This document shows, one piece after another, positions 2,684 through 46,171 of a stretch of 46,171 bases of DNA. Position 1 is the first letter of the stretch, and the number at the start of each line of letters is the position of its first letter. The notes beneath the pieces were generated by a model. The model worked only from the letters and a program-made list of their open reading frames with translations, did no database searches and was not told where the DNA came from. Source of the stretch: a virus; the IMG/VR virus record IMGVR_UViG_3300044712_002693, positions 1 through 46,171 of that record. The stretch is one strand, 5' to 3'. Made by a program: the position numbers and the translations under genes.

Positions 2684-3144
2684 GCCACTTCATCGTACTG
2701 GTCAAGCTTGTGGGACCGGATGACAGCGATGATCTTGTCCGCGTAGCGCGGATCGGTGGCATATCCAGCAATGGCGATCTGCCGCGCAAAATCTTCTCCG
2801 GTGCGCCTTCCTGTCATCGCCAGCCGATAGCGCGGATTGAGCGCGAAGAACTTTGCCCGGTCATTGATCGATGCCAGCCAGCCTGGATATTTCCGCCAGC
2901 CGGCCGTAACGGTCACCCATTGGCCTTTCAAGAATTCCCGTGTCGGCATGTACAAAACAGGGCCACTCCAGCTTCCGTCTGCCTTCACGCCGAACAGATT
3001 GAACGCCTGTTTTGCCAGTTGCGACTCGCCCCAACCAGACTCAAGCGCCGCCTGGGCAATCGTGAAGCTGGCCGGGATGCCGGTTATGTGCGCCGACTCC
3101 TGCGCAGCCGGGCCGATGGCGACAATGAATTCACGCGGCGTCAT
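2680..3144 (-). CDS. Endolysin, FlgJ-like glucosaminidase
   Basis: A 154-residue enzyme of the mannosyl-glycoprotein endo-beta-N-acetylglucosaminidase family (glycoside hydrolase family 73), which cuts peptidoglycan. Matching segments are IPASFTIAQAALESGWGES with the likely catalytic Glu, AFNLFGVKADGSW, and FLKGQWVTVTAGWRKYP. The chosen ATG at 3144 overlaps the stop of the upstream gene (ATGA); an open frame runs 38 codons further upstream but that part overlaps the upstream gene. No signal peptide is seen, so it needs a holin to reach the wall. Confidence 0.88.
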   Translation of the reverse strand: MTPREFIVAIGPAAQESAHITGIPASFTIAQAALESGWGESQLAKQAFNLFGVKADGSWSGPVLYMPTREFLKGQWVTVTAGWRKYPGWLASINDRAKFFALNPRYRLAMTGRRTGEDFARQIAIAGYATDPRYADKIIAVIRSHKLDQYDEVA

Positions 3145-3470
3145 GACAACCTCTTCAGAAAGGCAAGTATTTTTGGCCCGGCATCGGACAGGAAAAACCA
3201 AAGAGCCGAGACAGTGAATACAACACCACCAACGAAGGTTTTCTGCCTGTCCTGCCATATCTGCATGTCCAGCATCTGTTCGTTCATGCGTGACATCATC
3301 TGCAGGAGGCCAGGAGGAACATTCGCCTCCTTGTCCTCTTTTCTGAAAACCGCGTCATAGAGCGCCTGCTGCTGGTGCTGCTCAATTTTTTCAGTTTCCA
3401 TATGAGACTTGAACTCGTTGTGAAACTCTTCGAGCTTGTCGTCGCTCCATCGGGCTTTTTCTGCTGTCAT
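3141..3470 (-). CDS. Membrane-anchored lysis-module protein
   Basis: A 109-residue protein with a long charged helical N-terminal part (residues 1-75) and one C-terminal membrane helix, near TFVGGVVFTVSALWFFLSDAG. The start at 3470 is chosen because AGGAAA lies just upstream; the longer open frame runs into a terminator. It is directly upstream of the endolysin with overlapping stop and start codons. A holin-like or anti-holin-like role is possible from topology and place, but no family is recognised. Confidence 0.65.
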   Translation of the reverse strand: MTAEKARWSDDKLEEFHNEFKSHMETEKIEQHQQQALYDAVFRKEDKEANVPPGLLQMMSRMNEQMLDMQIWQDRQKTFVGGVVFTVSALWFFLSDAGPKILAFLKRLS

Positions 3471-3491
3471 TGGATTTCCTGATCCAGAAAT

Positions 3492-3515
3492 GAAAAAACC
3501 GCCCGGGGGCGGTTT
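3492..3515 (-). terminator. Intrinsic terminator before the lysis genes
   Basis: On the minus strand AACCGCC and GGCGGTT form a 7-bp stem with a 4-base loop, followed by a run of six T. It separates the tail fibre assembly gene from the lysis cassette. Confidence 0.8.
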
Positions 3516-3546
3516 GTAGTGGTGGTGTTGAATTACAGATGGCGAA

Positions 3547-3948
3547 TCATGGAGCAACAGGCAACGATGCGATGAATTCATCAACGGAAGGGAGCGCCGA
3601 CGTTCCTGCCTTTACTGCGTTGAGTAGCTTGTAAGCCTGGGCATTGCATTCGTCCATCCACGTTCCAAATGCCTCGGCCTTAGCCTGCCACGGGTTTGGA
3701 AATCCGGCGCGGAGGGCAAATGTGAACCGATCTCGCCAGCGGTCAGCTTTTGCCACTGCGTCAAGATGAGCATCAAGCGCGCTTTCGTACTGGGCGATGA
3801 TCGAGTTTCGTTCAGCGACAACATCAAGAGACCACTGATCGTTGGCAAAAACATGAAATGGCGACGGTCTCTGATCAACCTCGGAATCATCCTGGCCAAT
3901 ACGATCACCCTCGTAATAACAACCCTCTTTATTGATAAAGCATCCCAT
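3547..3948 (-). CDS. Tail fibre assembly-like protein
   Basis: A 133-residue protein placed directly after the tail fibre gene, the usual place of a fibre chaperone. Its C-terminal half (WMDECNAQAYKLLNAVKAGT, then PSVDEFIASLPVAP) resembles the C-terminal part of phage tail fibre assembly proteins. The ATG at 3948 is preferred, with a G-rich ribosome binding site; an in-frame GTG at 3957 overlapping the fibre stop is an alternative. Confidence 0.65.
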   Translation of the reverse strand: MGCFINKEGCYYEGDRIGQDDSEVDQRPSPFHVFANDQWSLDVVAERNSIIAQYESALDAHLDAVAKADRWRDRFTFALRAGFPNPWQAKAEAFGTWMDECNAQAYKLLNAVKAGTSALPSVDEFIASLPVAP

Positions 3949-3950
3949 GA

Positions 3951-5741
3951 TTACCACCCCCGATTAACGCGAAGAATCATTTTCCAGTTGGTGACTGCGA
4001 CCGCTAAAGCTGCAGCGGTTGTCTTGTTTTGAAGTGCTATATTTGCCGAGCCAGACAAAACCCGCACCGTTGATGTGTCTACTCCGACACCGAGGATCGA
4101 GTCGGCGACAGACGTCACACCATCCAACCAACGGGGAACCTCATCACCGACCGACCAGCCATTATTCGCAGTGACGCATTTAAGCGCGTACTCAACACGA
4201 GGGATGATTCCAGCGCCGATCTGATGGTTGTACGAAAACACCGTCGAGGAAGCCAGCGTTGCTGACTGGATGATGTTCTGCCCCATGTAGGCATAGGCGA
4301 CGGTGCTTGTCACCGTACCAGCCCCGGTTACAGCCTCTCCAACGAACACTCGATATGTCTGCGGCGCTGCCGCACCATTACCGACGAACATCTGCATTTG
4401 TGCGATGTTGAAGGTAGCCTGGTTTGCTGCCACAGAAGGCGTGCCACCTTGCTGATAAATCGGCAACACCGTCGTGCTACCAGGTGTCAGCGCGCCATTG
4501 GCCGCCACATCAACAAAGAGGTAGTTCGTTGCATTCGCGGTCAGGCCGGACCATGTCATGTTCGCCGTGCTAATTCCGACACGGTCAAGCGCGCCAGTGC
4601 TATTAAAGCCGTTGGCAGACGCGACGACGAATGGCGATCCGGCCGAGACATTCTGACTGGTCAACGACAGGCTTGCCGATGTCGCAGGGAGGAACGAAGG
4701 AAGGCCGCTTGTATCGACCGGCCCGCCGAGAACGGTTTGCCGAACAGAAACAGATGGAATAGAGGCTGTAATCGAAACGCCTGTAGCCGGGTTTAGCAGC
4801 ACCCACTTGTCGAGCGTTGCGTCGTACTGCAATTCGATCCAGTGGCCGCCGCCCGCAATGTCACCAACAGCTAGCGCAGCACCGGCACCCTTGACGATAG
4901 TCTTTGCCGCAATCACTCCGCTGGCCGGGGTGAAGGTCGGTGTGGTTGTCGCGTTGGCCGATCCGGCTCGGACGTATAGCGTCATTCCGTTGGTAAGCGA
5001 CGCGATGCCCGGGGTGTAAATTCCGGTGATCGCGTCGGCTGTGCCGCCGGCCGCTGAAATGTTGCATGCATTGCCTTGAAGGCCACCGACGATCAGCCCG
5101 AGAGCCGGAAGAATCTGAGCCGCCGAATATTGCGTGATATTGCCGGCGAGAATCTGGGTCTGCCCGTTGGCGACGGTGACGACATATGCGCCAACATATC
5201 CAGCGTCCGGAGCGGGCGTAACCTGGCTGCCGGTGGTTGCAGCAACACCGGCCTTTGCCACGATGCTGGCGACACCCTTGCGCACGGTGTTCTGTGCGGT
5301 GCCGGCATTGGCCGGCCCGGAGTAAGCCTGCGACGGGTTGCTGGCGTTGTAGTAGGGGAGCACGACGGCATTCGCGTCGCTGTCCTGGTAGGCAATTTCG
5401 ATCAGGTAATTGATGCTCTGGCCTGCGGTTGCGGGGGCCGGGCAGTTGAGCGTTACCTGATCGAGCGAAATGCCCTGCTTGAGAATCTGGTGAGTCGTGT
5501 CCGCAGCCAGCGAGGAATAGGCAGTGCCATCGATGTTAGACAGTGTGTAGATTTCGCCAGGGGCGCAATAGACCTGCAGGGATGCCGGCCCGGTCGGCGT
5601 GACGGCAAAGCCATTCAGCATCGTGGCAGTACCGAGGATTGCCGCTGCCAACTTCGACAGGCCGACCATCGCGTTCTTGTTCGTGTTCAGGAGGTCAGTT
5701 TCCAGCGGGATTGCGCCGGGATAGACGATTTGCCGATCCAT
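3951..5741 (-). CDS. Tail fibre protein
   Basis: A 596-residue protein, rich in Ala, Gly, Ser and Thr, right after the tail protein I gene. The N-terminal 200 residues (start MDRQIVYPGAIPLETDLLN, with NKNAMVGLSKLAAAILG) resemble the baseplate-attachment part of phage tail fibres. The remainder is low in charge, as in trimeric beta-structured fibres. It should bind the host surface. No DGR-type variable repeat is seen in it. A ribosome binding site GGAG precedes the ATG and a terminator lies just upstream. Confidence 0.8.
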   Translation of the reverse strand: MDRQIVYPGAIPLETDLLNTNKNAMVGLSKLAAAILGTATMLNGFAVTPTGPASLQVYCAPGEIYTLSNIDGTAYSSLAADTTHQILKQGISLDQVTLNCPAPATAGQSINYLIEIAYQDSDANAVVLPYYNASNPSQAYSGPANAGTAQNTVRKGVASIVAKAGVAATTGSQVTPAPDAGYVGAYVVTVANGQTQILAGNITQYSAAQILPALGLIVGGLQGNACNISAAGGTADAITGIYTPGIASLTNGMTLYVRAGSANATTTPTFTPASGVIAAKTIVKGAGAALAVGDIAGGGHWIELQYDATLDKWVLLNPATGVSITASIPSVSVRQTVLGGPVDTSGLPSFLPATSASLSLTSQNVSAGSPFVVASANGFNSTGALDRVGISTANMTWSGLTANATNYLFVDVAANGALTPGSTTVLPIYQQGGTPSVAANQATFNIAQMQMFVGNGAAAPQTYRVFVGEAVTGAGTVTSTVAYAYMGQNIIQSATLASSTVFSYNHQIGAGIIPRVEYALKCVTANNGWSVGDEVPRWLDGVTSVADSILGVGVDTSTVRVLSGSANIALQNKTTAAALAVAVTNWKMILRVNRGW

Positions 5742-17868: not shown

Positions 17869-18518
17869 TACGAATGCACCTCCGTCGCATTGATCCGCCA
17901 GCCGAGGTCGGTGGATTCCGCTGCCTCGATGGCGTAGCGCCGGCCGAGGTCATCGGTGGCAATGTCGCCGGCCATGATAGTGATCGGAACCGAAGGCGGC
18001 AGCAGGATTTGCCAGCCCGAGTTTTTGACGCCGGCCGGAAGCCCGAGGCCAGCCTGGGCTTTGCCACCGAGCAGGATTGAGGCTGGCCACAGGGCGCCGT
18101 CAGTGCCGAGCACGTCGTTTTCGTTGGACGGCTGATTGCCGCCGTAGCCAATCGCTCCGACGCCGTTCATGGCATTCTCGCGGGTGATCTTGAGCGACCG
18201 GTTGCAGTCGATAGCGATCACTGGCAACAGGAATTGCTTGCCAGCGATGAACTTGACGTCACCATTGCCGACCAGATAGTCGCCAGTTTGCACGTTGGCG
18301 TTGTTGATCAGTGCGAACCACGTCGGATCGCCGTACTCGTTCGGTTTCGTGAATTTGTAGGTCGACGACGAATCGAATGCCGCCTTGATGGTGGCGATCA
18401 GATTTCCCAACGGGGCACTGGCCGACAACGGACGGTATTGCTGGTACGGCATGCCGATGACGTTGGCCGCCTTGGCGTAGCCGGCATAGACACGGGCCTG
18501 GATTGTTGGGCCGTCCAT
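17868..18518 (-). CDS. Structural protein of the head-tail junction
   Basis: A 216-residue protein in the connector region. It begins MDGPTIQARVYAGYAKAANV and contains FVGR-free beta-rich stretches such as FLLPVIAIDCNRSLKITREN and WQILLPPSVPITIMAGDIAT. It likely belongs to the phage neck or minor structural group, but no specific family is certain. It is packed tightly between its neighbours. Confidence 0.65.
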   Translation of the reverse strand: MDGPTIQARVYAGYAKAANVIGMPYQQYRPLSASAPLGNLIATIKAAFDSSSTYKFTKPNEYGDPTWFALINNANVQTGDYLVGNGDVKFIAGKQFLLPVIAIDCNRSLKITRENAMNGVGAIGYGGNQPSNENDVLGTDGALWPASILLGGKAQAGLGLPAGVKNSGWQILLPPSVPITIMAGDIATDDLGRRYAIEAAESTDLGWRINATEVHS

Positions 18519-31586: not shown

Positions 31587-31799
31587 TTATGCGGCCCTCC
31601 GTGTGATCGCCATTTCGGGAAGATTGGTTCCGAACAGGTCGAGTTGCGCTTGTGGCTCTGATCGCTCTACAGCAATGCGGCGCCGGCAGTTGGCGGCCCA
31701 CTCCAGCAGGACGAACGAGAAGCCGCGATGCTGGCGCGTGAAGTGGCGCGACTGGGCCAGATAGACGCGGGCGGTGTGGATGTTGGCGGAGCGGGTCAT
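31587..31799 (-). CDS. Small basic protein of the early operon
   Basis: A 70-residue basic protein (MTRSANIHTARVYLAQSRHF, FVLLEWAANCRRRIAVERSE, LDLFGTNLPEMAITRRAA). No family is recognised. It lies between the PAPS-reductase-like gene and the O-like gene, with overlapping ends, so it is probably translated. The motif LDLFG resembles beta-clamp binding peptides, an inference only. Confidence 0.6.
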   Translation of the reverse strand: MTRSANIHTARVYLAQSRHFTRQHRGFSFVLLEWAANCRRRIAVERSEPQAQLDLFGTNLPEMAITRRAA

Positions 31800-32608
31800 G
31801 CGGTACTCCTTGCTGCCAGATCGCGGATTGGAACTCGGCTCATGTGCATCGTGTAGCCTGTCTGGCGCTCAATATCGTCGTACTTGTCCAGTAGCTCGGG
31901 ACGGTGACAGGCGCCGACGTTCATGTCGTTTTTTGAGGCCATGATGCAGAACACACAACTAAGGCGATCATTGCCAAGCGAGTAGGCGTAATGAGGCTTC
32001 TGTCCGGCATCTGCTATCGCCTTGAATACCTCGTCCGTCAGCATCGAGTGGACAGGAAGAAACTCGAACCAAGTGCGCTTGCTGTTGGTCTGGGTGTCGT
32101 TCTTGACCAGAACCTTCTTGGCGGCGCGGCCCGGCGATTCTTGGGCCCGCAGGCCAAGGCAATTGATAACCACCTCGAACCCGTTGGCGTCGGCGTATCG
32201 ACGAACCTCCCGGGAAATGGGGCCACGTTTCAGGTCGGAGGTGCATTGCCGACTCGATGCGCTAGGCCAGCTTGGAACGCTAGGGCGGTCCGCGAAGCGC
32301 TTTAGAACCATGTCGAAAAATGATTTAGCGGCGCGGGCAACAATAAATTCAAGACCGGCGTCTTGCGCCTGCTGGCGAGCAAGATCAAGGGCGCCGTGCC
32401 ATTCAATCTCGCCAAGGCTGGCGTGGACGACCAGTAGTTGCCTTGGAGGAACAAACTCGCGCAGCTTGATCAGCATGGCTTGGCTGTCCTTTCCGCCGCT
32501 ATGATTGCTGACTACCAGCGCGCCATCCATAACCATTCGCTTGACCCGAAGAAGAGCATCGTTGTCAGAAAGCTCGCCGTGGATGTCGAGGTTTAACTGA
32601 AGCGTCAT
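31796..32608 (-). CDS. PAPS reductase-like PP-loop protein
   Basis: A 270-residue protein of the phosphoadenosine phosphosulfate reductase family. The PP-loop motif SGGKDSQAML (near residue 37) binds a nucleotide pyrophosphate. Other family elements are GPISREVRRYADANGFEVVI with the upstream CTSDLKRG segment, and a C-terminal SLGNDRLSCVFCIMASKND with Cys residues. Related phage and DndC-type enzymes move sulphur or activate a substrate, but the substrate of this protein is not known. It is in the early operon, so it may modify DNA or RNA, or help sulphur metabolism. Confidence 0.85.
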   Translation of the reverse strand: MTLQLNLDIHGELSDNDALLRVKRMVMDGALVVSNHSGGKDSQAMLIKLREFVPPRQLLVVHASLGEIEWHGALDLARQQAQDAGLEFIVARAAKSFFDMVLKRFADRPSVPSWPSASSRQCTSDLKRGPISREVRRYADANGFEVVINCLGLRAQESPGRAAKKVLVKNDTQTNSKRTWFEFLPVHSMLTDEVFKAIADAGQKPHYAYSLGNDRLSCVFCIMASKNDMNVGACHRPELLDKYDDIERQTGYTMHMSRVPIRDLAARSTA

Positions 32609-35638: not shown

Positions 35639-36565
35639 ATGACCAAAGCAACCGCAGACAAGAAGGCCCTCGGCCTTTTCCAGAAGTTCAACGTCAGCCG
35701 CACCGATGGCCGCGATGCACCCGGCGAGAAGCACCACGGCGCCGAGTACTTCGTGCTCGATATGGCTGACACGTTCGCGATCCCAGCGCTGACCGCTTAC
35801 GCCGAAGCCTGCAAGCACGAATACCCGGTGCTTTCCGCCGATCTGTTCCGCAAGGCGTCCGAAAAGTCGCTGGCAGCATCCGAATTCATCACCGTTCCGG
35901 AAGTCACGCTGCCGAATGGCTTGGTTGTTCCGTCCTTCCTCTGCGCCAAGTTCCTGAGCAGCCAGGGCCTCAACGACACGCCGATTTCGCTCTTCACTGG
36001 CAAGCCGTGGGTCGAGATCAACTATCAGGAATCCCGCGATGCAGCCCTGCGCGCCGGACTGAACCTGATCACCGAAACGCAGGCCCTGGCCATCGCCTTC
36101 AACGTCAGCCAACAGGCCATTAACTGGACCGGTGGCGAAGTTGGCAATGGCGCTCTGTTCCAAGGTCTGCGCAATGACAACTTCGATGAAGCTCAGCCGG
36201 CCAACGTCGAATCCGAAGACGAAACCGAGCGCCGCTGGTTCGAGCTTTCAAACGGCGAGCGCATCTATGACTTCGCCGGCAATGCCTACACGTGGGTATT
36301 CGATGACGTTCAAGGCGATGAAAACGGCCTGACGACGATCATCAATGCAGATTCGCCAAGTCTGACGACTGCGCCCTTCCCATCCCGCGAAAAAGGCATG
36401 GGCTGGCGACCGGACGGCCAGCGCGACTGGTCCGGGCATGCGCTCATCCGGGGCGGCTGCTGGCTCTCCGAGTCGTATGCCGGCGCGTTCTATCTCGTCG
36501 GCGGCTGGCCCGGCAACCGCTACGGCGGCGTCGGCTTCCGCTGCACCAAACCCATTGGCCTCTGA
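35639..36565 (+). CDS. DGR target protein 1 with FGE-like C-type lectin domain
   Basis: A 308-residue protein, first gene of the rightward operon, with an AAGGAGAG ribosome binding site. Residues 1-82 (FNVSRTDGRDAPGEKHHGAE, YFVLDMADTFAIPALTAYAE) form a separate conserved phage domain of unknown role. From about residue 83 to the end is an FGE/sulfatase-modifying C-type lectin fold (LNLITETQALAIAFNVSQQA, RIYDFAGNAYTWVFDD, GWRP). The last 45 codons hold variable repeat VR1 and end GFRCTKPIGL. There is no signal peptide, so it is cytoplasmic or particle-bound. Confidence 0.9.
   Translation: MTKATADKKALGLFQKFNVSRTDGRDAPGEKHHGAEYFVLDMADTFAIPALTAYAEACKHEYPVLSADLFRKASEKSLAASEFITVPEVTLPNGLVVPSFLCAKFLSSQGLNDTPISLFTGKPWVEINYQESRDAALRAGLNLITETQALAIAFNVSQQAINWTGGEVGNGALFQGLRNDNFDEAQPANVESEDETERRWFELSNGERIYDFAGNAYTWVFDDVQGDENGLTTIINADSPSLTTAPFPSREKGMGWRPDGQRDWSGHALIRGGCWLSESYAGAFYLVGGWPGNRYGGVGFRCTKPIGL
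36429..36543 (+). repeat. DGR variable repeat VR1
   Basis: 115 bp matching the TR at 43904-44018 without gaps. It differs at 16 of the 24 TR adenines (10 to G, 5 to T, 1 to C), plus one T-to-C at 36464. Variable codons are mostly AAY or GAC in the TR. The 3' end GTCGGCTTCCGCTG is invariant and, with CACCAAACCC after it, likely is the initiation site of homing. Confidence 0.93.
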
Positions 36566-36575
36566 TCACCGGTCC

Positions 36576-36600
36576 CGGGTCGCGGCTCTGCCGTGACCTG
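36576..36600. repeat. Hairpin after VR1
   Basis: CGGGTCGCGGC (36576-36586) pairs with GCCGTGACCTG (36590-36600) around TCT, with two G-T pairs. It begins 33 bases after the end of VR1, as does the hairpin after VR2. No T run follows. Confidence 0.7.
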
Positions 36601-36627
36601 ATCAACGGAATCTCTCGGGAGAAAACC

Positions 36628-36882
36628 ATGAACAACGTCCATCCGCTTTTCAAAACCGCACTGGCACCTATCACGCCGCGCATGCCGGCCAAGGGCACGC
36701 GCCCCTTCGCTGTGCGCTTCACCATCGGCGCCGAGGTCCATGACCTCAACGTGATCGCCTTCACGTCCTGCGACGCGATCTGCATGGCTATCGACATCTT
36801 CTTCGACGGCGAGGACAACATGCCGGTCGACGGGATGAAAGTCGATGTGCACCCGATGAATTTCCTCCCGGCTGCTGCCTGA
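36628..36882 (+). CDS. Small protein, unknown function
   Basis: An 84-residue protein (VHPLFKTALAPITPRMPAKG, FAVRFTIGAEVHDLNVIAFT, ICMAIDIFFDGEDNMPVDGM). It has a good GGGAG ribosome binding site. No family is recognised. It lies between target gene 1 and the recombination genes. Confidence 0.65.
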   Translation: MNNVHPLFKTALAPITPRMPAKGTRPFAVRFTIGAEVHDLNVIAFTSCDAICMAIDIFFDGEDNMPVDGMKVDVHPMNFLPAAA

Positions 36883-36884
36883 CC

Positions 36885-37247
36885 ATGGCTCAAGTCACCA
36901 GCACCGTCGCCGACCGTGCCTACGCCATGGCCGAAATGTGGGCCAACGATCAGGAACGCCTCTCAGCCCTGATGCAGAGCGAAATGTCGGTCGATGACTT
37001 CAAGGAAATCTGCCAGCACCTCGCCACGGCATTTGTCGCCTTCACTGACGACAGCGTGAGCCGTGAGCAGACCGCCCGGGCCTTCTGGCTTCACTTGTCG
37101 ATGATCCACGGCATCGTCGTTGAGCGGATTTTCCTGCCGGTCGCCGAACGCCTGGCGAAACAGGACCACGACGAGAAGACCTGGGCGCTTGGCTGGGCGC
37201 CGGTCCAGATCGCCAACGCCGATCGCGCCTTGAAGCTCGCAGCATGA
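36885..37247 (+). CDS. Protein of the early rightward operon, unknown function
   Basis: A 120-residue mainly helical protein (ADRAYAMAEMWANDQERLSA, ICQHLATAFVAFTDDSVSRE, FWLHLSMIHGIVVERIFLPV). No membrane segment and no known family are visible. Its stop overlaps the start of a 29-codon frame (ATGA). Confidence 0.65.
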   Translation: MAQVTSTVADRAYAMAEMWANDQERLSALMQSEMSVDDFKEICQHLATAFVAFTDDSVSREQTARAFWLHLSMIHGIVVERIFLPVAERLAKQDHDEKTWALGWAPVQIANADRALKLAA

Positions 37248-37333
37248 AAAAGCTCGCCGCCGATTTCCTTTACTACCTGCGCCGTGGCTATGGCGTTCGC
37301 GCTGCATGGCGCCTGGCCCGCGTAACCCTCTGA
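37244..37333 (+). CDS. 29-residue basic peptide
   Basis: A frame of 29 codons encodes MKKLAADFLYYLRRGYGVRA, then AWRLARVTL. It is basic and amphipathic. The ATG overlaps the stop of the upstream gene (ATGA). Very short peptides ending in AWRLAR-type motifs are frequent in this position in proteobacterial phages, so it is probably translated. Function is unknown. Confidence 0.55.
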   Translation: MKKLAADFLYYLRRGYGVRAAWRLARVTL

Positions 37334-37340
37334 GACAACC

Positions 37341-38168
37341 ATGAACGCACCCGAAAGAATCGTCGCGCCGTCGCTGACCGTCCGCGCAAGCTCATGGGCC
37401 AGTCTGTTCGACTGCGCCTACATGTGGGAGGGCATCCACCTCCTGAAACTGCGCAACGTGGTCGGCCTGCGCGCCGCGCTTGGCACCGCCATTCATGCCG
37501 GTACCGCCGTTTTCGATACGGCACGCCTGACCGGTGACACCGTGACCGCTGACGATGCTGCCGGCGTCTTCGTCGACAAGCTGCACGACCCAGAAAATGA
37601 GTACGACCCGAGCCGCGATGACCTGTCTGTCAGCGAGGCCGAAAAGGTCGGCGTCACGCTCCTGACCAAGTACTGCTTCGAAGTCTCGCCGCGCTACAAC
37701 TTCGTGGCCGTCGAGATGGAAACCAAGCCGCTGGACATTGATTGCGGCTCCGGCGTGATTGTTCGCCTGACCGGCACCATGGACCGGGCGCGCATTCGCA
37801 AGGGCGACCACGGCGTCGGCATTGCTGACCTCAAGAGCGGCTCCGCAGCCGTGCAGAAGGGCGTCGCTGTCACCAAGGGCCACGGCCCCCAGATCGGCAC
37901 CTACGAACTGCTCTACGAGCACACGACCGGCGAGCCGATCACCGACGACGCCGAGATTATCGGCCTCAAGACCAAAGGGGCCGCCGAAATCGCCACCGGC
38001 ACGGTCAAGAACGCCAAGCGCGTGATGGTCGGTACCGAAGACCAGCCCGGCTTGATTGAGTTTGCAGCCGAGATGTTCAAGACCGGCCGCTTTTACCCCA
38101 ACCCCAAGTCGCTCCTGTGCTCGGCCAAGTATTGCCCGCGCCACGCGACTTGCCATTTCCACGACTGA
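37341..38168 (+). CDS. PD-(D/E)XK nuclease with Fe-S cluster (Cas4/RecB-like)
   Basis: A 275-residue nuclease of the Cas4/RecB-like exonuclease group, probably the partner of RecT. His52 (AIHAGTAVFD) lies in motif I, Asp148 in TGTMDR is the metal-binding residue, and motif IADLKSG has Asp163 and Lys165. Four Cys (25, 260, 265 and 271) can hold an iron-sulphur cluster (CSAKYCPRHATC at the end). It should resect DNA to give single strands for RecT. It lies 17 bases before recT. Confidence 0.85.
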   Translation: MNAPERIVAPSLTVRASSWASLFDCAYMWEGIHLLKLRNVVGLRAALGTAIHAGTAVFDTARLTGDTVTADDAAGVFVDKLHDPENEYDPSRDDLSVSEAEKVGVTLLTKYCFEVSPRYNFVAVEMETKPLDIDCGSGVIVRLTGTMDRARIRKGDHGVGIADLKSGSAAVQKGVAVTKGHGPQIGTYELLYEHTTGEPITDDAEIIGLKTKGAAEIATGTVKNAKRVMVGTEDQPGLIEFAAEMFKTGRFYPNPKSLLCSAKYCPRHATCHFHD

Positions 38169-38185
38169 CAGGAGAACGCAACACC

Positions 38186-39241
38186 ATGACAGCACCTAAC
38201 CAACTCGCCGAGATGAAAACCGGCAACAACCTTGCCCAGCAGCAGGACGTAAAGGTCGATTTCTTCTCGAAAAACGGCTTCGAACTGGCCTGCCGGATTT
38301 CGAAGGCTCTCGCCACCTCTGACGCCGTGCCGGCTCAGTTCCGTCAGTTCGTCGAGAAGAAGGAACGCGGCGGCGGTGTAACGCTGGTCGAGAATCCCGC
38401 AGCTATCGGCAATTGCCTGGTGGCGATGGAAGTTTCTCGCTCGGTCGGCCTTTCCGTGATTGCGGTGATGCAGAACGCCGACGTGATCCAAGGAAAGCTC
38501 CGCTGGTCTTCGAAATTCCAGATCGCGGCAATCAACGCCTCGGGCCGCTTCTCCCCGCTCAAGTTCAAGCTACAGAACCTTGGCCGCATCAAGGCCAAGT
38601 ACAAGGAAAAGCTGGGATGGAACAAGCAACTGAACCGCTTCGACTTTGCCGAGCATGAAGTCGAAATCGACAATTGGGAGTGTGTCGCCTGGGCTTACGA
38701 ACTGGACGCCAACAAGCGTCCGACCAAGGAAATCGTCCAGTCGATCCCGATCACCATGCAGATGGCGGTCGAGGAAGGCTGGTATTCGAAGGAAGGGTCA
38801 AAGTGGCAAGGCTCGATGCGCTTCCAGATGCTCCAGTACCGCGCCGGCACCTTCTTTGGCTCGATCTACGCCCCGGACGTGCTGATGGGCATGGGGAAGA
38901 GCACCGAAGAGGAAGTCGACGTGATCGATGTCGTTCCTCAAGCGGACGGCTCGTATGCCGCGACCAGCGCCACCCTGCAGGAACTTCGCTCCGCGCCTGA
39001 CGTTGGCACCATCCCGACGACTGAATCCATCGACAAATCGACCGGAGAAATCCTCGACGCCGACGACGCAGCCCTTCGCGAAGTTGAGCAGACGAAGGCA
39101 GAGCCGGCCAAGTCGGGCGAATGGACGCCTAGCCCGGAAGAACTAGCCGCGATCCGCGCGCAGGAAATGGCCGAGGCCCAAGGCAAGCAACCCGAACCGA
39201 CCCGCCAGCGCCGCGAACGTAGCGGCATGGGCATCGAGTAA
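38186..39241 (+). CDS. recT: RecT-like single-strand annealing protein
   Basis: A 351-residue DNA annealing protein. The region NCLVAMEVSRSVGLSVIAVM, then ADVIQGKLRWSSKFQIAAIN and MQMAVEEGWYSKEGSKWQGS matches the RecT family. The C-terminal 100 residues are acidic and likely flexible. The ATG at 38186 is chosen because GGAGAA lies 9 bases upstream. Together with the nuclease it forms a recombination pair. It could take part in copying VR sequence, but that is not known. Confidence 0.88.
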   Translation: MTAPNQLAEMKTGNNLAQQQDVKVDFFSKNGFELACRISKALATSDAVPAQFRQFVEKKERGGGVTLVENPAAIGNCLVAMEVSRSVGLSVIAVMQNADVIQGKLRWSSKFQIAAINASGRFSPLKFKLQNLGRIKAKYKEKLGWNKQLNRFDFAEHEVEIDNWECVAWAYELDANKRPTKEIVQSIPITMQMAVEEGWYSKEGSKWQGSMRFQMLQYRAGTFFGSIYAPDVLMGMGKSTEEEVDVIDVVPQADGSYAATSATLQELRSAPDVGTIPTTESIDKSTGEILDADDAALREVEQTKAEPAKSGEWTPSPEELAAIRAQEMAEAQGKQPEPTRQRRERSGMGIE

Positions 39242-39249
39242 CGATCAAC

Positions 39250-39268
39250 GGGGCGGCGTTGCCGCTCC
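39250..39268. repeat. Intergenic hairpin after recT
   Basis: GGGGCGGC (39250-39257) pairs with GCCGCTCC (39261-39268) around GTT. It resembles the hairpins after VR1 and VR2 in size and loop length and lies beside the stop of recT, so such hairpins are not unique to the DGR targets. Confidence 0.5.
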
Positions 39269-39295
39269 ATCTAAAACCGAAACAGGAGAAACAAG

Positions 39296-39964
39296 ATGGC
39301 TGAACAACAAGACTTCCGCAACATGACCGCCGACTCTGTTGGCAAAGACCTGCTCGGCGCGTTGCTGGCTGAAATCAAGCTGCTGCCGGATCCGTGGCAG
39401 AAGCTATCCAAGGCCAAGCAAGACGACATCATTGACCGCCTGCGCGACCGCGTCACCTCCAACGTCAAGATGGCCGTGCATCTGCTGGCCGCCGAGGGCC
39501 GCGTGACGATTGCCGGCGACCTCGACCAGATCACCATCAAAGATGGGGTGAAAGCGGTAGTGAAGTTCGGTACCGGTGCCGAAAACCTGCACGAACTGTA
39601 CGACGTGGCCGGCAAGGCGATCCTGCTGGTGGTTGCCAATGCAGCGGACCACACAGTCGGCATGAATGAGGTGACTGGCGAATCCGACCAGCGCGCCATG
39701 GACCTCGGCCACGAATACAAGCCGAACAGCGACGGTGATGGCATGGACGGTGGCGGTGTGATCGAGGGCGAAGTGCTTGGCCTGCCGTCTCCGGATCAGG
39801 TAAAGCCGAGCGAAGAGGAACTGGACGCTGCCTTCGATCAGGGCTACTCCGCAGCCGAGGCCGGAAAACCTGAGAGCGAGTGCCCGGTCATCCGTCACGA
39901 ACTGGTCAAAGAGTGGATTCGCGGCTGGAAGTCATTTCACGAAGAAAACGAGAAGGCCGCCTGA
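39296..39964 (+). CDS. Phage protein with C-terminal Rmf-like domain
   Basis: A 222-residue protein. The N-terminal part (LLGALLAEIKLLPDPWQKLS, then VKMAVHLLAAEGRVTIAGDL) is a conserved phage domain of unknown role. The C-terminal 45 residues (FDQGYSAAEAGKPESECPVI, then EWIRGWKSFHEE) match the pattern GY.A..AG....CP....W..GW of ribosome modulation factor and CrpP-like small proteins. It has an AGGAGA ribosome binding site. The C-terminal similarity suggests nucleic acid or ribosome binding. Confidence 0.7.
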   Translation: MAEQQDFRNMTADSVGKDLLGALLAEIKLLPDPWQKLSKAKQDDIIDRLRDRVTSNVKMAVHLLAAEGRVTIAGDLDQITIKDGVKAVVKFGTGAENLHELYDVAGKAILLVVANAADHTVGMNEVTGESDQRAMDLGHEYKPNSDGDGMDGGGVIEGEVLGLPSPDQVKPSEEELDAAFDQGYSAAEAGKPESECPVIRHELVKEWIRGWKSFHEENEKAA

Positions 39965-39966
39965 TC

Positions 39967-40266
39967 ATGGAAGCTTATCGCCACAACCGCATGACCATCG
40001 AGTTGCACAACGACGAAATGGACACCATGCGCGAAATTCTGCGCCTCGCCCATGAGCGCCTTATCAATGCGCCACTCATTCAGATGAAAGGCTCGCCGCT
40101 CGAACGCCAAGCCTGCCTTGTCGGCCCGGAGTTGTTCCGCGCCAAGGACATGATTGAAAAGCTCGGAAAGCACCTTGGCATTGAGTTGCCGATGGATGCA
40201 AAGCCGGGTAACGAACCCGAGCACGTTTACATCTGTTTCGAGATTATAAACGAGGTGAAAAAGTGA
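39967..40266 (+). CDS. Small helical protein, unknown function
   Basis: A 99-residue protein (MTIELHNDEMDTMREILRLA, HERLINAPLIQMKGSPLERQ, AKDMIEKLGKHLGIELPMDA). It is helical and has no recognised domain. The stop overlaps the GTG of the next gene (GTGA), so it is likely co-translated with the ATPase. Confidence 0.65.
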   Translation: MEAYRHNRMTIELHNDEMDTMREILRLAHERLINAPLIQMKGSPLERQACLVGPELFRAKDMIEKLGKHLGIELPMDAKPGNEPEHVYICFEIINEVKK

Positions 40267-42098
40267 AAATCCAATCCATCACCACAAGCAACTTCCTCGG
40301 CTCCCGCGCCGTCGAGTTGCGCCTGAACAAGCAGGTCGCTCTGATCGCCGGGAAGAACTTCGCCGGTAAGAGCAGCATTCAGGAGGCCGTCCGCATGGCC
40401 CTGACCGGCGAGACTGTCCGCGTTGATCTTAAAAAGGACTATGCCGCGCTGATCACCGAGGGGCAGGAGTCTGGCTTTGCGGCCATTGAAACCACGAACG
40501 CTGGTTTCGAGGCTGTTCTGCCTTCCGGCAAGGGAAACCACAGCGACAACGCCGCGCTTTCCTACGTCCTCGACGCCCAGCGCTTCGCCAAGATGGCCGA
40601 GAACGACCGCCGCCAGTTCCTTTTCGGGCTGATGGGCGTAAAACTCGACAGCGACAACATCCGCCGTCGCCTGATTGATCGCCTGTTCGGCAAGTCTCAG
40701 ATGTTGGACGCCGATACCAAGCGCATAGACCAGATCGCCCCGATCCTTCGCGCCGGCTTTGATGCGGCGGCCAAGGAAGCCGCCAGCAAGGCACGCGACT
40801 CCAAGTCCAGCTACAAGACGGCAACCGGTGGCGACACCTGGGGCAATGAGAAGGGCGGAAAGTGGCAACCGGCCGCGCTTCCTGACGAAGCCAACAAGGC
40901 ACAGAACCGCCACGATAACGCCAAGGAAAAGCTGATCGAGGCCGACAAGGAACTGGCTGCCGCGCAACAGGAACTCGGCGCGGCCAAATCTGCACAGCGC
41001 CAGGCGCACGAAGCCGAGACAAAGCGCCTCGAACTGCACAACATGGCTAGCAACGTCGAACGCTACGCCACGAAGCTAAACCTCGACACCGCCGAACTGG
41101 TGGCATGGGAACAGAAGGTAGCCGACTGCAAGGCAAAGGCCGGCGTCGCCAAGCCTGACCCGAAAGAGCCCGGTGAATTCCTGCTGCGTGGGCTGGCCGC
41201 CGTAACCGATGAATTTCTTGTCATCGCCCGCTCTTTCCCCGATCCGTTCGATGACGAACTGGTCAACCGTGCCGAGACACACCTTGCCGAGTACAAGAAG
41301 TTGCACGGCTGGCCGCACAAGAAGGATGACCAACCCGATCGGGAAGCCATCGCCAAGCTGCCAGAGTACGAAAACGCCCTGAAGCTGATGCAGAGCTCCG
41401 TCGCTAACAGCAAGCGTAACCTTGAAGCGGCACAGAAGGCGGCCGAGCAGTTGAAGGAACTGGACGGGCTAAAGGCAAACGCCAACACCGACGAAGCAGA
41501 ATCCAAGGTCGCCGACCTGAAAGCGAAGCGCGACGCCTGGCTGGCCGACGTCACCAAGTACCGCGACATCGCCGAGCAGTTCAGCCGCCGTCAAGCGGCA
41601 ATCGATCAGGTCGCCAAGCTTCACGCCGACGTTCTGGCATGGACGGCGATTGCCGACGCGCTGGCACCGGATGGCATCCCGGCCGAATTGCTGGCCGAGG
41701 CTCTTGAGCCGATCAATCACCGGCTTGCGGTGACGGCGGGCGACGCTCAATGGGACCGCATCGAAATCATGCCCGACATGCAGATCATCGCCGCACTGCA
41801 TGGCCGCCCCTACGCCTTGCTGTCCGAGTCTGAGAAGTGGCGCGCCGACGCGATGATTGCCGAGGCTGTGTCGCATATCGCTGGCTTGAAACTGCTGGTT
41901 CTCGACCGCTTCGACGTTCTAGATCTCAACGGCCGAGAGGACTTGCTTTACTGGCTCGACGGCATGGCCGCAGCCGGAGAAATCGACACCGCTCTTATCT
42001 TCGGCACGCTCAAGGCGCTGCCAACGCTCAACTTCGACAACATCGAGGCGTTCTGGATCGAAAACGGCGTATCCGGCCAGATGAAGGAGGCGGCGTGA
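40263..42098 (+). CDS. SbcC/Rad50-like ATPase
   Basis: A 611-residue ABC-type ATPase. Walker A is GKNFAGKS (residues 30-37). Central residues about 190-460 are charged and helical, with coiled-coil character (ANKAQNRHDNAKEKLIEADK, AKRDAWLADVTKYRDIAEQF). A signature-like LSESEKWRADAMI precedes Walker B LLVLDRFDVLD. The start is GTG at 40263. The family joins DNA ends or holds strands; here it probably supports phage recombination. No SbcD nuclease is seen. Confidence 0.85.
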   Translation: MKIQSITTSNFLGSRAVELRLNKQVALIAGKNFAGKSSIQEAVRMALTGETVRVDLKKDYAALITEGQESGFAAIETTNAGFEAVLPSGKGNHSDNAALSYVLDAQRFAKMAENDRRQFLFGLMGVKLDSDNIRRRLIDRLFGKSQMLDADTKRIDQIAPILRAGFDAAAKEAASKARDSKSSYKTATGGDTWGNEKGGKWQPAALPDEANKAQNRHDNAKEKLIEADKELAAAQQELGAAKSAQRQAHEAETKRLELHNMASNVERYATKLNLDTAELVAWEQKVADCKAKAGVAKPDPKEPGEFLLRGLAAVTDEFLVIARSFPDPFDDELVNRAETHLAEYKKLHGWPHKKDDQPDREAIAKLPEYENALKLMQSSVANSKRNLEAAQKAAEQLKELDGLKANANTDEAESKVADLKAKRDAWLADVTKYRDIAEQFSRRQAAIDQVAKLHADVLAWTAIADALAPDGIPAELLAEALEPINHRLAVTAGDAQWDRIEIMPDMQIIAALHGRPYALLSESEKWRADAMIAEAVSHIAGLKLLVLDRFDVLDLNGREDLLYWLDGMAAAGEIDTALIFGTLKALPTLNFDNIEAFWIENGVSGQMKEAA

Positions 42099-42268
42099 GG
42101 ATTCTCAAGCACCCGATACATGAAAAGTGGTGGTGGTACTTCTGCCCGACCACGATTGCCGCGCGGATCCGTGCCCTCGGCTCTGATGACCGCCTCGGCG
42201 TGATCTGGGTCCGTCCGCTCAACAAGGACGAGACCGAACAAGTTAATAAATTGATGGGAGTTGCTTAA
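42095..42268 (+). CDS. 57-residue protein before target gene 2
   Basis: A 57-residue protein (MRILKHPIHEKWWWYFCPTT, RIRALGSDDRLGVIWVRPLN, KDETEQVNKLMGVA). It starts with GTG overlapping the ATPase stop (GTGA). Function and family are unknown. The Trp-rich start is unusual. Confidence 0.6.
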   Translation: MRILKHPIHEKWWWYFCPTTIAARIRALGSDDRLGVIWVRPLNKDETEQVNKLMGVA

Positions 42269-42270
42269 TC

Positions 42271-42969
42271 ATGAAAAACGATTGCTTTGTATATGTTCCA
42301 GAAACGACTCTGCCGAACGGAACTATCGTCCCGGCGTTCCATGTTGGCCAATATGCCTGCACCAAAGGCGAAGAAGGGAAAGCTGCTGTTTCGCCCAGCG
42401 CCGCACCATGGGTTCGAATCAATTTTGCCGAGGCAAAAGAGGCGTGCGAGAAGGCTGGTTACAAACTCATCACCGAACTGCAATGGCTGGCCATCGCCTG
42501 GAACGCTTCACAGCAGGCGTGCAACTGGACGAAGGGCGAAGTCGGCAAGGGAAAACTGTTCCGTGGCATCCGCAATGGCAATTACAGCAGCGCCCAGCCG
42601 GGCAACGTTGAGCCGGCAGACCATAAGGAACGCCGCTGGCTGACCTTGTCGAGCGGTGAGCGCATTTGCGACATGAACGGAAACGTCTGGCAGTGGGTAT
42701 TCGATAACGTCCAAGGCAACGATGACGGCCTGATCGCCAAGGCATTCGACAAGGAATCGCCGTCGATTGCTGCCGCGCCCTACCCGAGCGAAGAGAAGGG
42801 AATGGGCTGGCGACCGTCCTCTGGTTCAAATTGGTCCGGGAATGCGCTCATCCGGGGCGGCTACTGGTGCTCCGAGTCGGATGCCGGCGCGTTCAATCTC
42901 AACAGCGACTGGCCCGGCGACCGCAGCGGCGACGTCGGCTTCCGCTGCACCAAACCCATTGGCCTCTGA
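42271..42969 (+). CDS. DGR target protein 2 with FGE-like C-type lectin domain
   Basis: A 232-residue protein made only of the FGE-like C-type lectin domain (TLPNGTIVPAFHVGQYACTK, YKLITELQWLAIAWNASQQA, RICDMNGNVWQWVFDN). It lacks the extra N-terminal domain of target 1. The last 45 codons carry VR2 and end GFRCTKPIGL, identical to target 1. GGGAG precedes the ATG. There is no signal peptide. It lies directly in front of the accessory gene, the TR and the reverse transcriptase. Confidence 0.92.
   Translation: MKNDCFVYVPETTLPNGTIVPAFHVGQYACTKGEEGKAAVSPSAAPWVRINFAEAKEACEKAGYKLITELQWLAIAWNASQQACNWTKGEVGKGKLFRGIRNGNYSSAQPGNVEPADHKERRWLTLSSGERICDMNGNVWQWVFDNVQGNDDGLIAKAFDKESPSIAAAPYPSEEKGMGWRPSSGSNWSGNALIRGGYWCSESDAGAFNLNSDWPGDRSGDVGFRCTKPIGL
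42833..42947 (+). repeat. DGR variable repeat VR2
   Basis: 115 bp aligning with the TR at 43904-44018 without gaps. All 9 differences are at TR adenines and all are changed to G. Changed codons include TAC to TGC, AAT to GAT, AAC to AGC or GAC, and GAC to GGC. Confidence 0.94.
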
Positions 42970-42979
42970 TCCCTGGCTT

Positions 42980-43004
42980 CCGGTCACTGCGCAGCGGTGA
43001 CCGG
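42980..43004. repeat. Hairpin after VR2
   Basis: CCGGTCACTGC (42980-42990) pairs with GCGGTGACCGG (42994-43004) around GCA, with one T-G pair. It begins 33 bases after VR2. No T run follows. Confidence 0.75.
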
Positions 43005-43031
43005 ACAAACCAACCCAAACACTGAGAAATC

Positions 43032-43877
43032 ATGAGCGAAGCACCAACCAAAGAAGAACAGACCGAGTTTTCAATCCGAGCCTTCCGATGCGTCGAGGTT
43101 GGCCTTGGTCAAGCTGACCCGACAGCGGCCATTGCCGCCAAGTTGGAAGCGAAGAATCCGGGGCACCTGGTTCTGGTTCAGGCTGGCAAGTTCCTGCATG
43201 GGTTTGATCGCACGGCCTATGCGCTGAACGTGCTGAAGCAGTACAAAATGAAGTTGGTCGGAACAGCGGAAGAGCCGCGCCTTCGTGTTGGATTTCCGGT
43301 CGGGAATTTCAAACGCCGACTATGGTCAATGGTCGCTGACTTCGGCATTCCCTATGTCGTTGCGCTCGGCACGCAGGCAGAAGGCCACACGGTATATGTA
43401 TCCGAGCAACCGGCCGGCAATGTTTCGGTACTGGATTCCGTCTCTGACCTGGTGGTTCATGAGGTCATCACCGAACTGAAGCAACGCGGTGAATTGAACA
43501 AAGCTGCCGCCAAGCAACTGTTGGCCACTCCGGACACTTCCGGATTTGCGCTTAAGTCGCAGGCACAAGACCTCGACACTCAAATTTTGCAGGACATCAT
43601 CAAGTTGCCACGTGACCTGCGCTGTACCTACGGAGAGAATCTGCGCGCCTGCATGGCGAGAATCATCCGCGCCATCTTTGCCTTTGGTTTGGAAGAGAAC
43701 AAGCCGGCCCTGTTGCGCAGTCTGTCGGCAGATGTGGATTGCCTCAAGCACTACCTGACTCAGGCTCCAAGGCTAAACCTGCACAAGTCGTTCTCGTTCG
43801 AACATCGTGTCGGTTTAGCCGTTGAGCTTGGCAAGCTTGTTGGCGGACTGATTAAGTCCCATCAGGTGCAGCCATGA
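43032..43877 (+). CDS. MutS domain I-Avd fusion, DGR accessory protein
   Basis: A 281-residue protein with two parts. Residues about 33-125 (LVLVQAGKFLHGFDRTAYAL, MKLVGTAEEPRLRVGFPVGN) align with MutS domain I. The Phe of the mismatch-reading Phe-X-Glu motif is kept (Phe54) but the Glu is His56. Residues about 180-278 (KLPRDLRCTYGENLRACMAR, ALLRSLSADVDCLKHYLTQA, VELGKLVGGLIKS) match the Avd four-helix accessory protein that binds the DGR RNA and the reverse transcriptase. Its stop overlaps ATG 43874. It should help priming or copying of the TR. Confidence 0.82.
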   Translation: MSEAPTKEEQTEFSIRAFRCVEVGLGQADPTAAIAAKLEAKNPGHLVLVQAGKFLHGFDRTAYALNVLKQYKMKLVGTAEEPRLRVGFPVGNFKRRLWSMVADFGIPYVVALGTQAEGHTVYVSEQPAGNVSVLDSVSDLVVHEVITELKQRGELNKAAAKQLLATPDTSGFALKSQAQDLDTQILQDIIKLPRDLRCTYGENLRACMARIIRAIFAFGLEENKPALLRSLSADVDCLKHYLTQAPRLNLHKSFSFEHRVGLAVELGKLVGGLIKSHQVQP

Positions 43878-43903
43878 TGTTCAACGAAGGGGGATTTCTG
43901 GAA

Positions 43904-44018
43904 GGTCCGGAAATGCGCTCATCCGGGGCGGCTACTGGTACTCCGAGTCGAATGCCGGCGCGTTCAATCTCAACAACGACTGGCCCGACAACCGCAACGA
44001 CAACGTCGGCTTCCGCTG
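43904..44018 (+). repeat. DGR template repeat (TR)
   Basis: 115 bp, 24 adenines, located between the accessory gene and the reverse transcriptase. It matches VR1 and VR2 from GGTCCGG to GTCGGCTTCCGCTG. Two adenines just before it (43902 and 43903) may also be part of it. After the match it reads ACCCAAGGAT where the VRs read CACCAAACCC. In the VR frame the TR ends with TGA. Its transcript is the RNA copied with adenine errors. Confidence 0.94.
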
Positions 44019-44152
44019 ACCCAAGGATTTCATGTTTAGACGCTGGGCACGCCCACGGAAAGCTTCTTCTTGGTCGAAATCTTCCTGAAGCAATCGCTTC
44101 AAAAGCAAGGCAACACGCCCAGCCGGGAACCGCCACGGGGCCTGCTGGCGCC

Positions 44153-45151
44153 GTGGCGGAACACGGTAGTGATTTCTACAACCTGACGACACTTGTCAAC
44201 CTTCACGCATGCTGGATCAAGGCCAGACGTAACAAGGGAAACAGGGAGCGCATCCAGCGCTTTGCTCAAGATCCGCTGCACTATCTGAGCATCATTCAGG
44301 AACGACTGCGCAGCCGAACCTATTCCTTCGGCCCGTACCGCAGCTTCACTGTTCGAGAGAAGAAATTCCGGTTCGTGATTGATGCGCCGATGAAGGATCG
44401 CATTGTCCATTGGATGCTCTACGACTACCTGCTGCCAATCTGGCAGACGCGCTTCATCCATGACACCTACGGAAACCTTCCCGGGCGCGGCACGCTGGCT
44501 GCCATCAACCGCCTGGCCGACTTCTGCCGGCGACCGGCGGCGCGCTGGGTGCTGCAACTCGACATCTCGAAATATTTCTATTCGGTCGGCCATGACCTGC
44601 TGAAAGCTCGGGCACTGCGATTCATCGGCGACCACGACGTGCGCCAATTGGTTATTGCGTTGATCGATTCTTGGCGCACCGACGACCGTTACGACGATCT
44701 GTTCCCGGCCGATAGCGCCTACCGGAAGACGGCGGCAAAGGGCATGCCCATCGGCAATCTGTCATCGCAGCTATTCGCGAACATCTTCCTCAACGACTTC
44801 GATCACTGGGTAAAGGAAACCCTGCGCGTTCGGCATTACATCCGCTACGTCGACGACATGGTTATCGTCGCCGAGAGCAAGGAGGCGGCCGAGGAAATCG
44901 GCCGGGCCATCGTCGAGAAGCTGGCAGCCGACGGCATGACCATCCACCCCAAGAAAATCTGCTTGGCGCCGGTTGCCGCCGGCATCCCATTCCTCGGCTA
45001 CGTGGTGTGGCCGAATCACATCTCGGCGGGGCGCTACGTGCGCTCCCGCTTTCTTCACAGACTCAGGCAGCACGAAACCGGCGGTTACGACCGAACGGAG
45101 AGCTTGCAGTCATATCGGGCCATGCTTGGCCATACAGGAGCAACACGATGA
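44153..45151 (+). CDS. DGR reverse transcriptase
   Basis: A 332-residue retroelement reverse transcriptase if started at GTG 44153. It has the DGR N-terminus (DFYNLTTLVNLHACWIKARR), motif A LQLDISKYF (Asp137), the DGR hallmark IGNLSSQ (200-206) instead of the usual QG...SP, and catalytic YVDD (232-235). The end SLQSYRAMLGHTGATR is typical. An open frame reaches back to ATG 43874, which overlaps the stop of the accessory gene and would put the TR in the coding region. No strong ribosome binding site is seen before the GTG. The stop overlaps the dUTPase ATG. Confidence 0.92.
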   Translation: MAEHGSDFYNLTTLVNLHACWIKARRNKGNRERIQRFAQDPLHYLSIIQERLRSRTYSFGPYRSFTVREKKFRFVIDAPMKDRIVHWMLYDYLLPIWQTRFIHDTYGNLPGRGTLAAINRLADFCRRPAARWVLQLDISKYFYSVGHDLLKARALRFIGDHDVRQLVIALIDSWRTDDRYDDLFPADSAYRKTAAKGMPIGNLSSQLFANIFLNDFDHWVKETLRVRHYIRYVDDMVIVAESKEAAEEIGRAIVEKLAADGMTIHPKKICLAPVAAGIPFLGYVVWPNHISAGRYVRSRFLHRLRQHETGGYDRTESLQSYRAMLGHTGATR

Positions 45152-45959: not shown

Positions 45960-46171
45960 CCCAACCAGAAAAAATAATCAGACTTCCTGAAGTCGAGGCT
46001 TTAGTCGGCCTAAAAAAGTCGGCCATCTACAAGATGATTAATGCTGACGAGTTTCCCAAACCGTTTTCAATCAGCAAGGGAGCGAAGGGCTGGCTAGAAT
46101 CGTCTGTGCAGGGATGGATTCGAAAGCGGGCTGGCATTCCGGCGAATGATGGGCAGATGGAGGCGGCATAA
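45956..46171 (+). CDS. AlpA-like excision regulator
   Basis: A 71-residue DNA-binding protein of the AlpA family (IIRLPEVEALVGLKKSAIYK, then MINADEFPKPFSISKGAKGW). AlpA proteins regulate phage integrase or act in excision. Its ATG overlaps the upstream stop (ATGA). Its stop is the last codon of the window. In a circular map the integrase follows directly (TAAATG), as in many P4-like elements. Confidence 0.88.
   Translation: MTQPEKIIRLPEVEALVGLKKSAIYKMINADEFPKPFSISKGAKGWLESSVQGWIRKRAGIPANDGQMEAA

Follow-up and report, generated by a model that had tools for sequence, protein, structure and literature searches.

The virus record IMGVR_UViG_3300044712_002693 from IMG/VR (46,171 nucleotides, referred to as the window and analysed over its whole length) is practically certain to carry a diversity-generating retroelement (DGR) with two target genes. 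In the established mechanism of these elements a template repeat (TR) is copied with errors at adenines and the product replaces a variable repeat (VR) in a target gene. Two-target DGRs are known already and make up about one in seven. What appears new is a family in which the accessory protein joins MutS domain I to Avd (the MutS_I-Avd fusion family) and every target hairpin examined contains a mismatch. We tentatively suggest, giving this slightly less than an even chance, that the lineage labels its targets with a deliberately mismatched hairpin read by the Avd-fused, MutS-derived domain, which would then serve as a reader of addresses and not in repair.

Mismatched target hairpins in the fusion family

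A hairpin 3' of the VR is an element already known to take part in target recognition by DGRs. Homing of the Bordetella phage BPP-1 DGR requires a DNA hairpin at this site, the reader of which was not shown, and hairpins of this class have a fully paired, GC-rich stem of 7-10 bp with a 4-nt GRNA loop (PMC3240598). Neither hairpin in the window fits this definition. Downstream of the first variable repeat (VR1) lies a plus-strand hairpin at 36576-36600 with the core ggtcGcggc[TCT]gccgTgacc (36578-36598), which has a TCT loop, a G36582.T36594 mismatch at bp 5 from the loop and a further G.T at 36577/36599. The hairpin downstream of the second variable repeat (VR2; 42979-43005, plus strand) reads tccggtcacTgc[GCA]gcGgtgaccgga, with a GCA loop and a T42988.G42996 mismatch at bp 3 from the loop. 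BPP-1 itself, in contrast to the mismatched stems of this phage, has a perfect 8-bp stem and a GAAA loop.

Hairpins were called with a scorer that gave an equal penalty to each mismatch type, and a score cut of 14 was applied; two apparently 'perfect' hairpins (L071:5126 and L014:341) were weak wrong calls with scores of 11-12 and were dropped by this cut. A non-Watson-Crick pair was present in bp 1-7 in all of the 82 distinct fusion-family hairpins (82/82), and 78 of the 82 had exactly one mismatch in bp 3-5, while two mismatches there were found in none (0/82). The mismatches at bp 3-5 were G.T or T.G in 72 hairpins, A.C in five and A.G in one. Had positions been independent, about 15.6 perfect stems would have been expected among the 82, and none was observed. 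DGRs that lack MutS_I, taken from phages in GenBank and from IMG/VR, served as controls and yielded 62 distinct hairpins of adequate score, in which bp 1-7 were perfect in 44/62 and mismatched in 18/62, and bp 3-5 were perfect in 53/62 and had one mismatch in 9/62. One DGR without MutS_I, in L150 (6426-6558), has a VR hairpin that resembles those of the fusion family, its loop being GTA and its bp 5 a G.T.

The mismatch also moves between positions. The VRs of one genome differed in mismatch class in 21 of 48 genomes, and on the accessory-protein tree at least 10 changes of class were counted for the proximal VR and at least 9 for the distal VR. A switch from bp 5 to bp 3, made one change at a time, must pass through a stem that is either perfect or mismatched twice, and neither was found among the family hairpins. 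The arms are conserved in sequence (GGTCRC / GTGACC), and a search of 0.9 Mb for the core pattern gave, among the matches listed, VR 3' ends only, besides the same hairpins read on the minus strand. We consider it very likely that the mismatch is kept by selection.

Strong coding-strand preference for G.T over A.C, together with the sequence conservation of the arms, is what would be seen if the hairpin were an RNA or a loosely constrained structure in which G.U is tolerated and GGTCRC / GTGACC is a lineage sequence motif. Such an explanation appears rather improbable, as it would lead one to expect some perfect stems (about 15, against none observed), the A.C and A.G pairs at bp 3-5 are non-standard in RNA, the mismatch site moves among bp 3, 4 and 5, and the BPP-1 hairpin acts as DNA (PMC3240598). 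Another explanation, that a long cruciform, if perfect, would be unstable or open to cleavage, for instance by nucleases of the SbcCD type, and that the mismatch lessens this, would suit stems that are often 9-12 bp long here compared with 7-10 bp in other phage DGRs (PMC3240598), as well as the presence in the same cluster of a gene for an SbcC-like ATPase (phrog_77, 40263-42098). We regard it as very doubtful, since perfect 8-10 bp stems are common among other DGRs and instability alone predicts no narrow placement at bp 3-5.

MutS domain I in the accessory protein

The accessory gene (43032-43877, plus strand, 281 aa) had been described from the sequence alone as Avd-like, which was borne out for its C-terminal part, while the gene as a whole encodes a fusion of a MutS domain I-like region (approximately aa 28-125) with Avd (approximately aa 170-278). 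The Avd part matched bAvd at 2.8e-5 over residues 178-276, which lies under Pfam's own cut-off, and the PHROG Avd family at 1.7e-7, and in Foldseek the C-terminal part of the model matched BPP-1 Avd (4dwl) and a DGR ribonucleoprotein (8ub7).

The N-terminal domain is almost certainly MutS domain I. A direct Pfam search of the 281-aa protein gave no MutS_I match, and a hidden Markov model (HMM) search of PDB sequences did not find MutS; the link to MutS comes from HMM intermediates and the predicted fold. MutS_I was the second commonest Pfam match among 41 family members (17/41, all weak, best 0.013). An HMM of the fusion family matched L146, another fusion, at 1.1e-13 and L148, in which the gene is stand-alone, at 5.8e-6, and these two score 1e-4 and 2.2e-14, respectively, against Pfam MutS_I, both exceeding the curated cut-off. 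Alignment of the N-terminal profile with host MutS by hhalign reached an E value of only 0.012, in the expected register. With 47 relatives, AlphaFold gave a model in which the N-terminal alpha/beta domain was well predicted (predicted local distance difference test, pLDDT, mostly 71-88 over aa 31-150). The best PDB matches of this model in Foldseek were MutS structures, several of which were solved with G.T mismatches. The position of the mismatch-stacking Phe of MutS is occupied by F in 44/47 and by W in 3/47 sequences. The protein shares with the MutS mismatch-repair protein the domain I fold and the aromatic mismatch-stacking position, and differs from it in that MutS also has connector, core, clamp and ATPase domains and a Phe-x-Glu motif where Phe-x-His stands here. 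No Pfam match to the MutS clamp and ATPase domains was found, the remainder of the 281-aa protein being Avd.

The occurrence of MutS domain I inside a DGR is already known, because MSL (MutS-like, PF01624), a DGR accessory gene with this domain, has been described, as far as the account of Wu et al. 2018 cited in PMC10053308 extends. The domain is part of the DGR cassette in both cases, and it is stand-alone with a separate Avd in L148 and fused in the phage studied here. In L148 the stand-alone MSL gene (3016-3791) is followed by a separate Avd-like gene, the TR and the reverse transcriptase (RT). L146 carries at 2983-3711 a second, diverged MutS_I-Avd-like fusion of another lineage, on a 3.7-kb contig without recognisable TR/VR. 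That a mismatch goes with every MutS_I gene was ruled out by the perfect inner stem of L148, and the mismatch rule is therefore confined to the fusion family and does not cover all MSL genes; L260 was left out of the MSL hairpin comparison because of Ns downstream of its VR.

Proposed target recognition

According to the proposed mechanism, the RT would copy TR RNA with errors at A and the cDNA would replace VR1 and VR2, which would alter the ligand face of two FGE/C-lectin proteins. The choice of target, which is the inferred step, would be made via a hairpin or cruciform 30-40 nt 3' of each VR, and in this lineage that hairpin would have to hold one mismatch, usually a coding-strand G.T, at 3-5 bp from a loop that is mostly GNA/GNNA. 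The Avd-fused MutS domain I would bind the mispaired stem and bring the Avd-RT-TR complex there. The mismatched hairpin would thereby mark both target genes as recipients, because each of them has one and the TR does not. The chances that MutS domain I reads the mismatched hairpin are about evenly balanced.

The main rival to this hairpin reading is that the element is an ordinary two-target DGR in which MutS domain I shields the cDNA:VR heteroduplex from host mismatch repair and the hairpin mismatch is incidental. A heteroduplex of mutated cDNA and VR must be rich in mismatches (9-17 differences separate TR from VR in this phage), a stand-alone MSL gene with a perfect inner stem exists (L148), and mutS was deleted in one E. 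coli DGR assay in order to keep the substitutions (PMC12875486). Shielding nevertheless leaves the 0/82 perfect stems unexplained, as it does the single mismatch at bp 3-5 with its shifting place and bases, and we consider it unlikely.

Several observations weigh against a selected mismatch that is read by the MutS-derived domain. The Fisher p values for the fusion family versus the controls were <1e-18 in each comparison, and they overstate independence because the MutS_I-Avd family is one clade. The 9-10 changes of mismatch position are minimum numbers, by parsimony, from a quickly built tree, and recombination between sites could be behind part of them. In L148, where MSL is stand-alone, the inner stem is perfect over 10 bp, G.T is also present in the stems of some DGRs without MutS_I (BalMu-1, L149, L150 and others), and the coding-strand ratio of G.T to A.C (72 to 5) fits RNA G.U tolerance as well. 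With respect to the protein, the Glu of the Phe-x-Glu motif is replaced by His in 44/47 sequences, and binding may be weak when domain I stands alone and lacks the clamp and ATPase.

Repeats, target genes and reverse transcriptase

The TR (43904-44018, plus strand) is 115 nt long and contains 24 A, and VR1 (36429-36543) and VR2 (42833-42947), both on the plus strand, are of the same length. In VR1, 16/24 TR adenines are altered in addition to one T->C change (TR position 43939), which is the single non-A change; in VR2, 9/24 are altered, each A->G, with no non-A change. Changes thus fell at TR adenines in 16/17 and 9/9 cases, respectively (hypergeometric p 8e-13 and 2e-7 for the concentration at A). 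The sequence-only reading, which had reported a 115-bp TR with two equal-length VRs, proved exact to the base in its placing of the repeats, the 24 A and the 16 and 9 differences; it had noticed neither the MutS domain nor the mismatched hairpins. Both VRs are upstream of the TR, VR1 at a distance of 7.5 kb and VR2 at 1.1 kb. The end of TR and VRs that resembles an initiation of mutagenic homing (IMH) site consists of the A-free 15-nt stretch CGTCGGCTTCCGCTG, which is identical, followed by CACC versus ACCC. A scan of both strands of the whole window revealed no third VR, the runner-up site agreeing at 49% of non-A positions.

VR1 and VR2 each encode the C-terminal end of an FGE/C-lectin protein. 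Target gene 1 (35639-36565, plus strand, 308 aa) has a C-terminal FGE/C-type-lectin domain with VR1 and matched FGE-sulfatase at 1.2e-3, below the Pfam cut-off, and phrog_9572 at 7e-40. Target gene 2 (42271-42969, plus strand, 232 aa), whose FGE/C-type-lectin domain contains VR2, matched FGE-sulfatase at 4.6e-10, above the Pfam cut-off. The N-terminal domain of target 1 (approximately 75 aa, 35639-35870) also occurs in the unrelated phages BcepF1 and JWF and in Gordonia and M. abscessus phages, and is lacking from target 2.

The RT gene (44153-45151, plus strand; approximately 332 aa from GTG 44153) was recognised by RVT_1 (1e-25), by the PHROG 'Reverse transcriptase' family (3e-99) and by its motifs IGNLSSQ (DGR-type (I/L)GxxxSQ) and YVDD. 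A longer ORF (43874-45151) overlaps the TR; because the full-length RT similarity of several relatives begins at residue 99 of this ORF, GTG 44153 is probably the start, which would leave the TR non-coding. For the RT with IGNLSSQ and the two FGE-like targets claimed previously, motif and profile matches agree, with the VR1 gene below the Pfam cut-off, and the complete two-target DGR was found with all of its parts (RT, TR/VR pairs, IMH, FGE-type targets and accessory protein). A single operon for the DGR genes is plausible, as they are on the same strand and tightly spaced.

Relatives and their diversification

Three overlapping scans for relatives of the accessory protein found 11, then 55, then 59 viral loci. 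Bacterial genomes contained 12 loci, mostly in Betaproteobacteria (Aromatoleum, Thauera, Pseudothauera, Gallionella, Duganella and Solimicrobium; Aromatoleum toluclasticum has the relative L013), and a protein search of 50,697 phage records found none. Among 62 elements with TR and VR, two VRs occur in 41, three in eight and a single one in 13, and some of these last 13 contigs or loci end prematurely. The A-specific pattern was present in 62/62 elements, the same pattern having also served to find them. The adenine-specific change proposed at the outset was therefore seen in this phage and in every relative with a recognisable TR/VR.

Two pairs of closely related elements served as a check that could have refuted adenine-only variation. 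L055 and L078 are identical at 18,369/18,369 positions outside the repeats and have eight VR differences, all at TR adenines and all in the distal VR. Between L053 and L054, 30/67 VR-A positions are different, against 0/194 other VR positions, none in the TR and 3.9% elsewhere. Within the repeats, both pairs thus vary at VR-A only. The fusion family diversifies, and from these relatives we infer that the present copy is probably active as well. That the element in the window is a relic that has lost diversification is scarcely credible, given that every part is intact, the non-A positions are conserved in both VRs and close relatives diversify.

Phage setting and comparison with known systems

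The window encodes terminase, portal, capsid, sheath, tape measure, baseplate, endolysin, a CI-type repressor, integrase and AlpA. The phage is temperate and contractile-tailed, and its host is most likely a Betaproteobacterium. Structural genes are located on the minus strand, and the DGR with both targets occupies the plus strand in the region from the repressor to the integrase; the targets therefore lie outside the tail cluster. Neighbours of the DGR are recombination genes encoding a PD-(D/E)XK exonuclease, a RecT-like annealing protein and the SbcC-like ATPase, and this module (37341-42098) is situated between the two targets, an arrangement shared with Burkholderia phage Magia. The RecT-type protein could aid in cDNA integration. 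Other ORFs include a PAPS-reductase-like gene (31796-32608), a gene whose product ends in a ribosome modulation factor-like domain (39296-39964; RMF, 5.9e-9) and, in tail-fibre position, a gene for a 596-aa protein (3951-5741) without Pfam or PHROG match and without VR. The record begins with the integrase ATG at position 1 and ends with the AlpA stop codon at position 46171, and it looks trimmed at gene ends, as a prophage cut-out or an opened circle. In a promoter and terminator scan, promoters were no commoner than chance.

The BPP-1 DGR is alike in its RT, TR, Avd, A-specific change, IMH and 3' hairpin, and differs in having one target (the tail protein mtd) and in its Avd, which is 128 aa long and has no MutS domain. 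In Magia the genes follow the order seen here (lectin target 1, exonuclease, RecT, AAA ATPase, lectin target 2, Avd, RT, excisionase and integrase), but its Avd of approximately 118 aa lacks a MutS domain, its targets are small, its RT is only 31% identical and the scorer found no comparable hairpin in it. DGRs with several VRs have already been reported (PMC3521204; phages nd4/nd12, PMC10743442), with one TR and two or more FGE/C-lectin targets as here; in the accounts available from these reports, neither a MutS-Avd fusion nor mismatched hairpins are described.

Implications

The part worth testing is the recognition hypothesis, in which a MutS domain is paired with a mismatched hairpin. The MutS_I-Avd lineage names both a candidate reader and a candidate signal for recognition of the target hairpin by a DGR, and it makes the question of hairpin recognition testable by a few point changes. 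If the hypothesis is true, MutS domain I would have been reused for addressing and not for repair, and this could aid the retargeting of DGRs for laboratory protein evolution.

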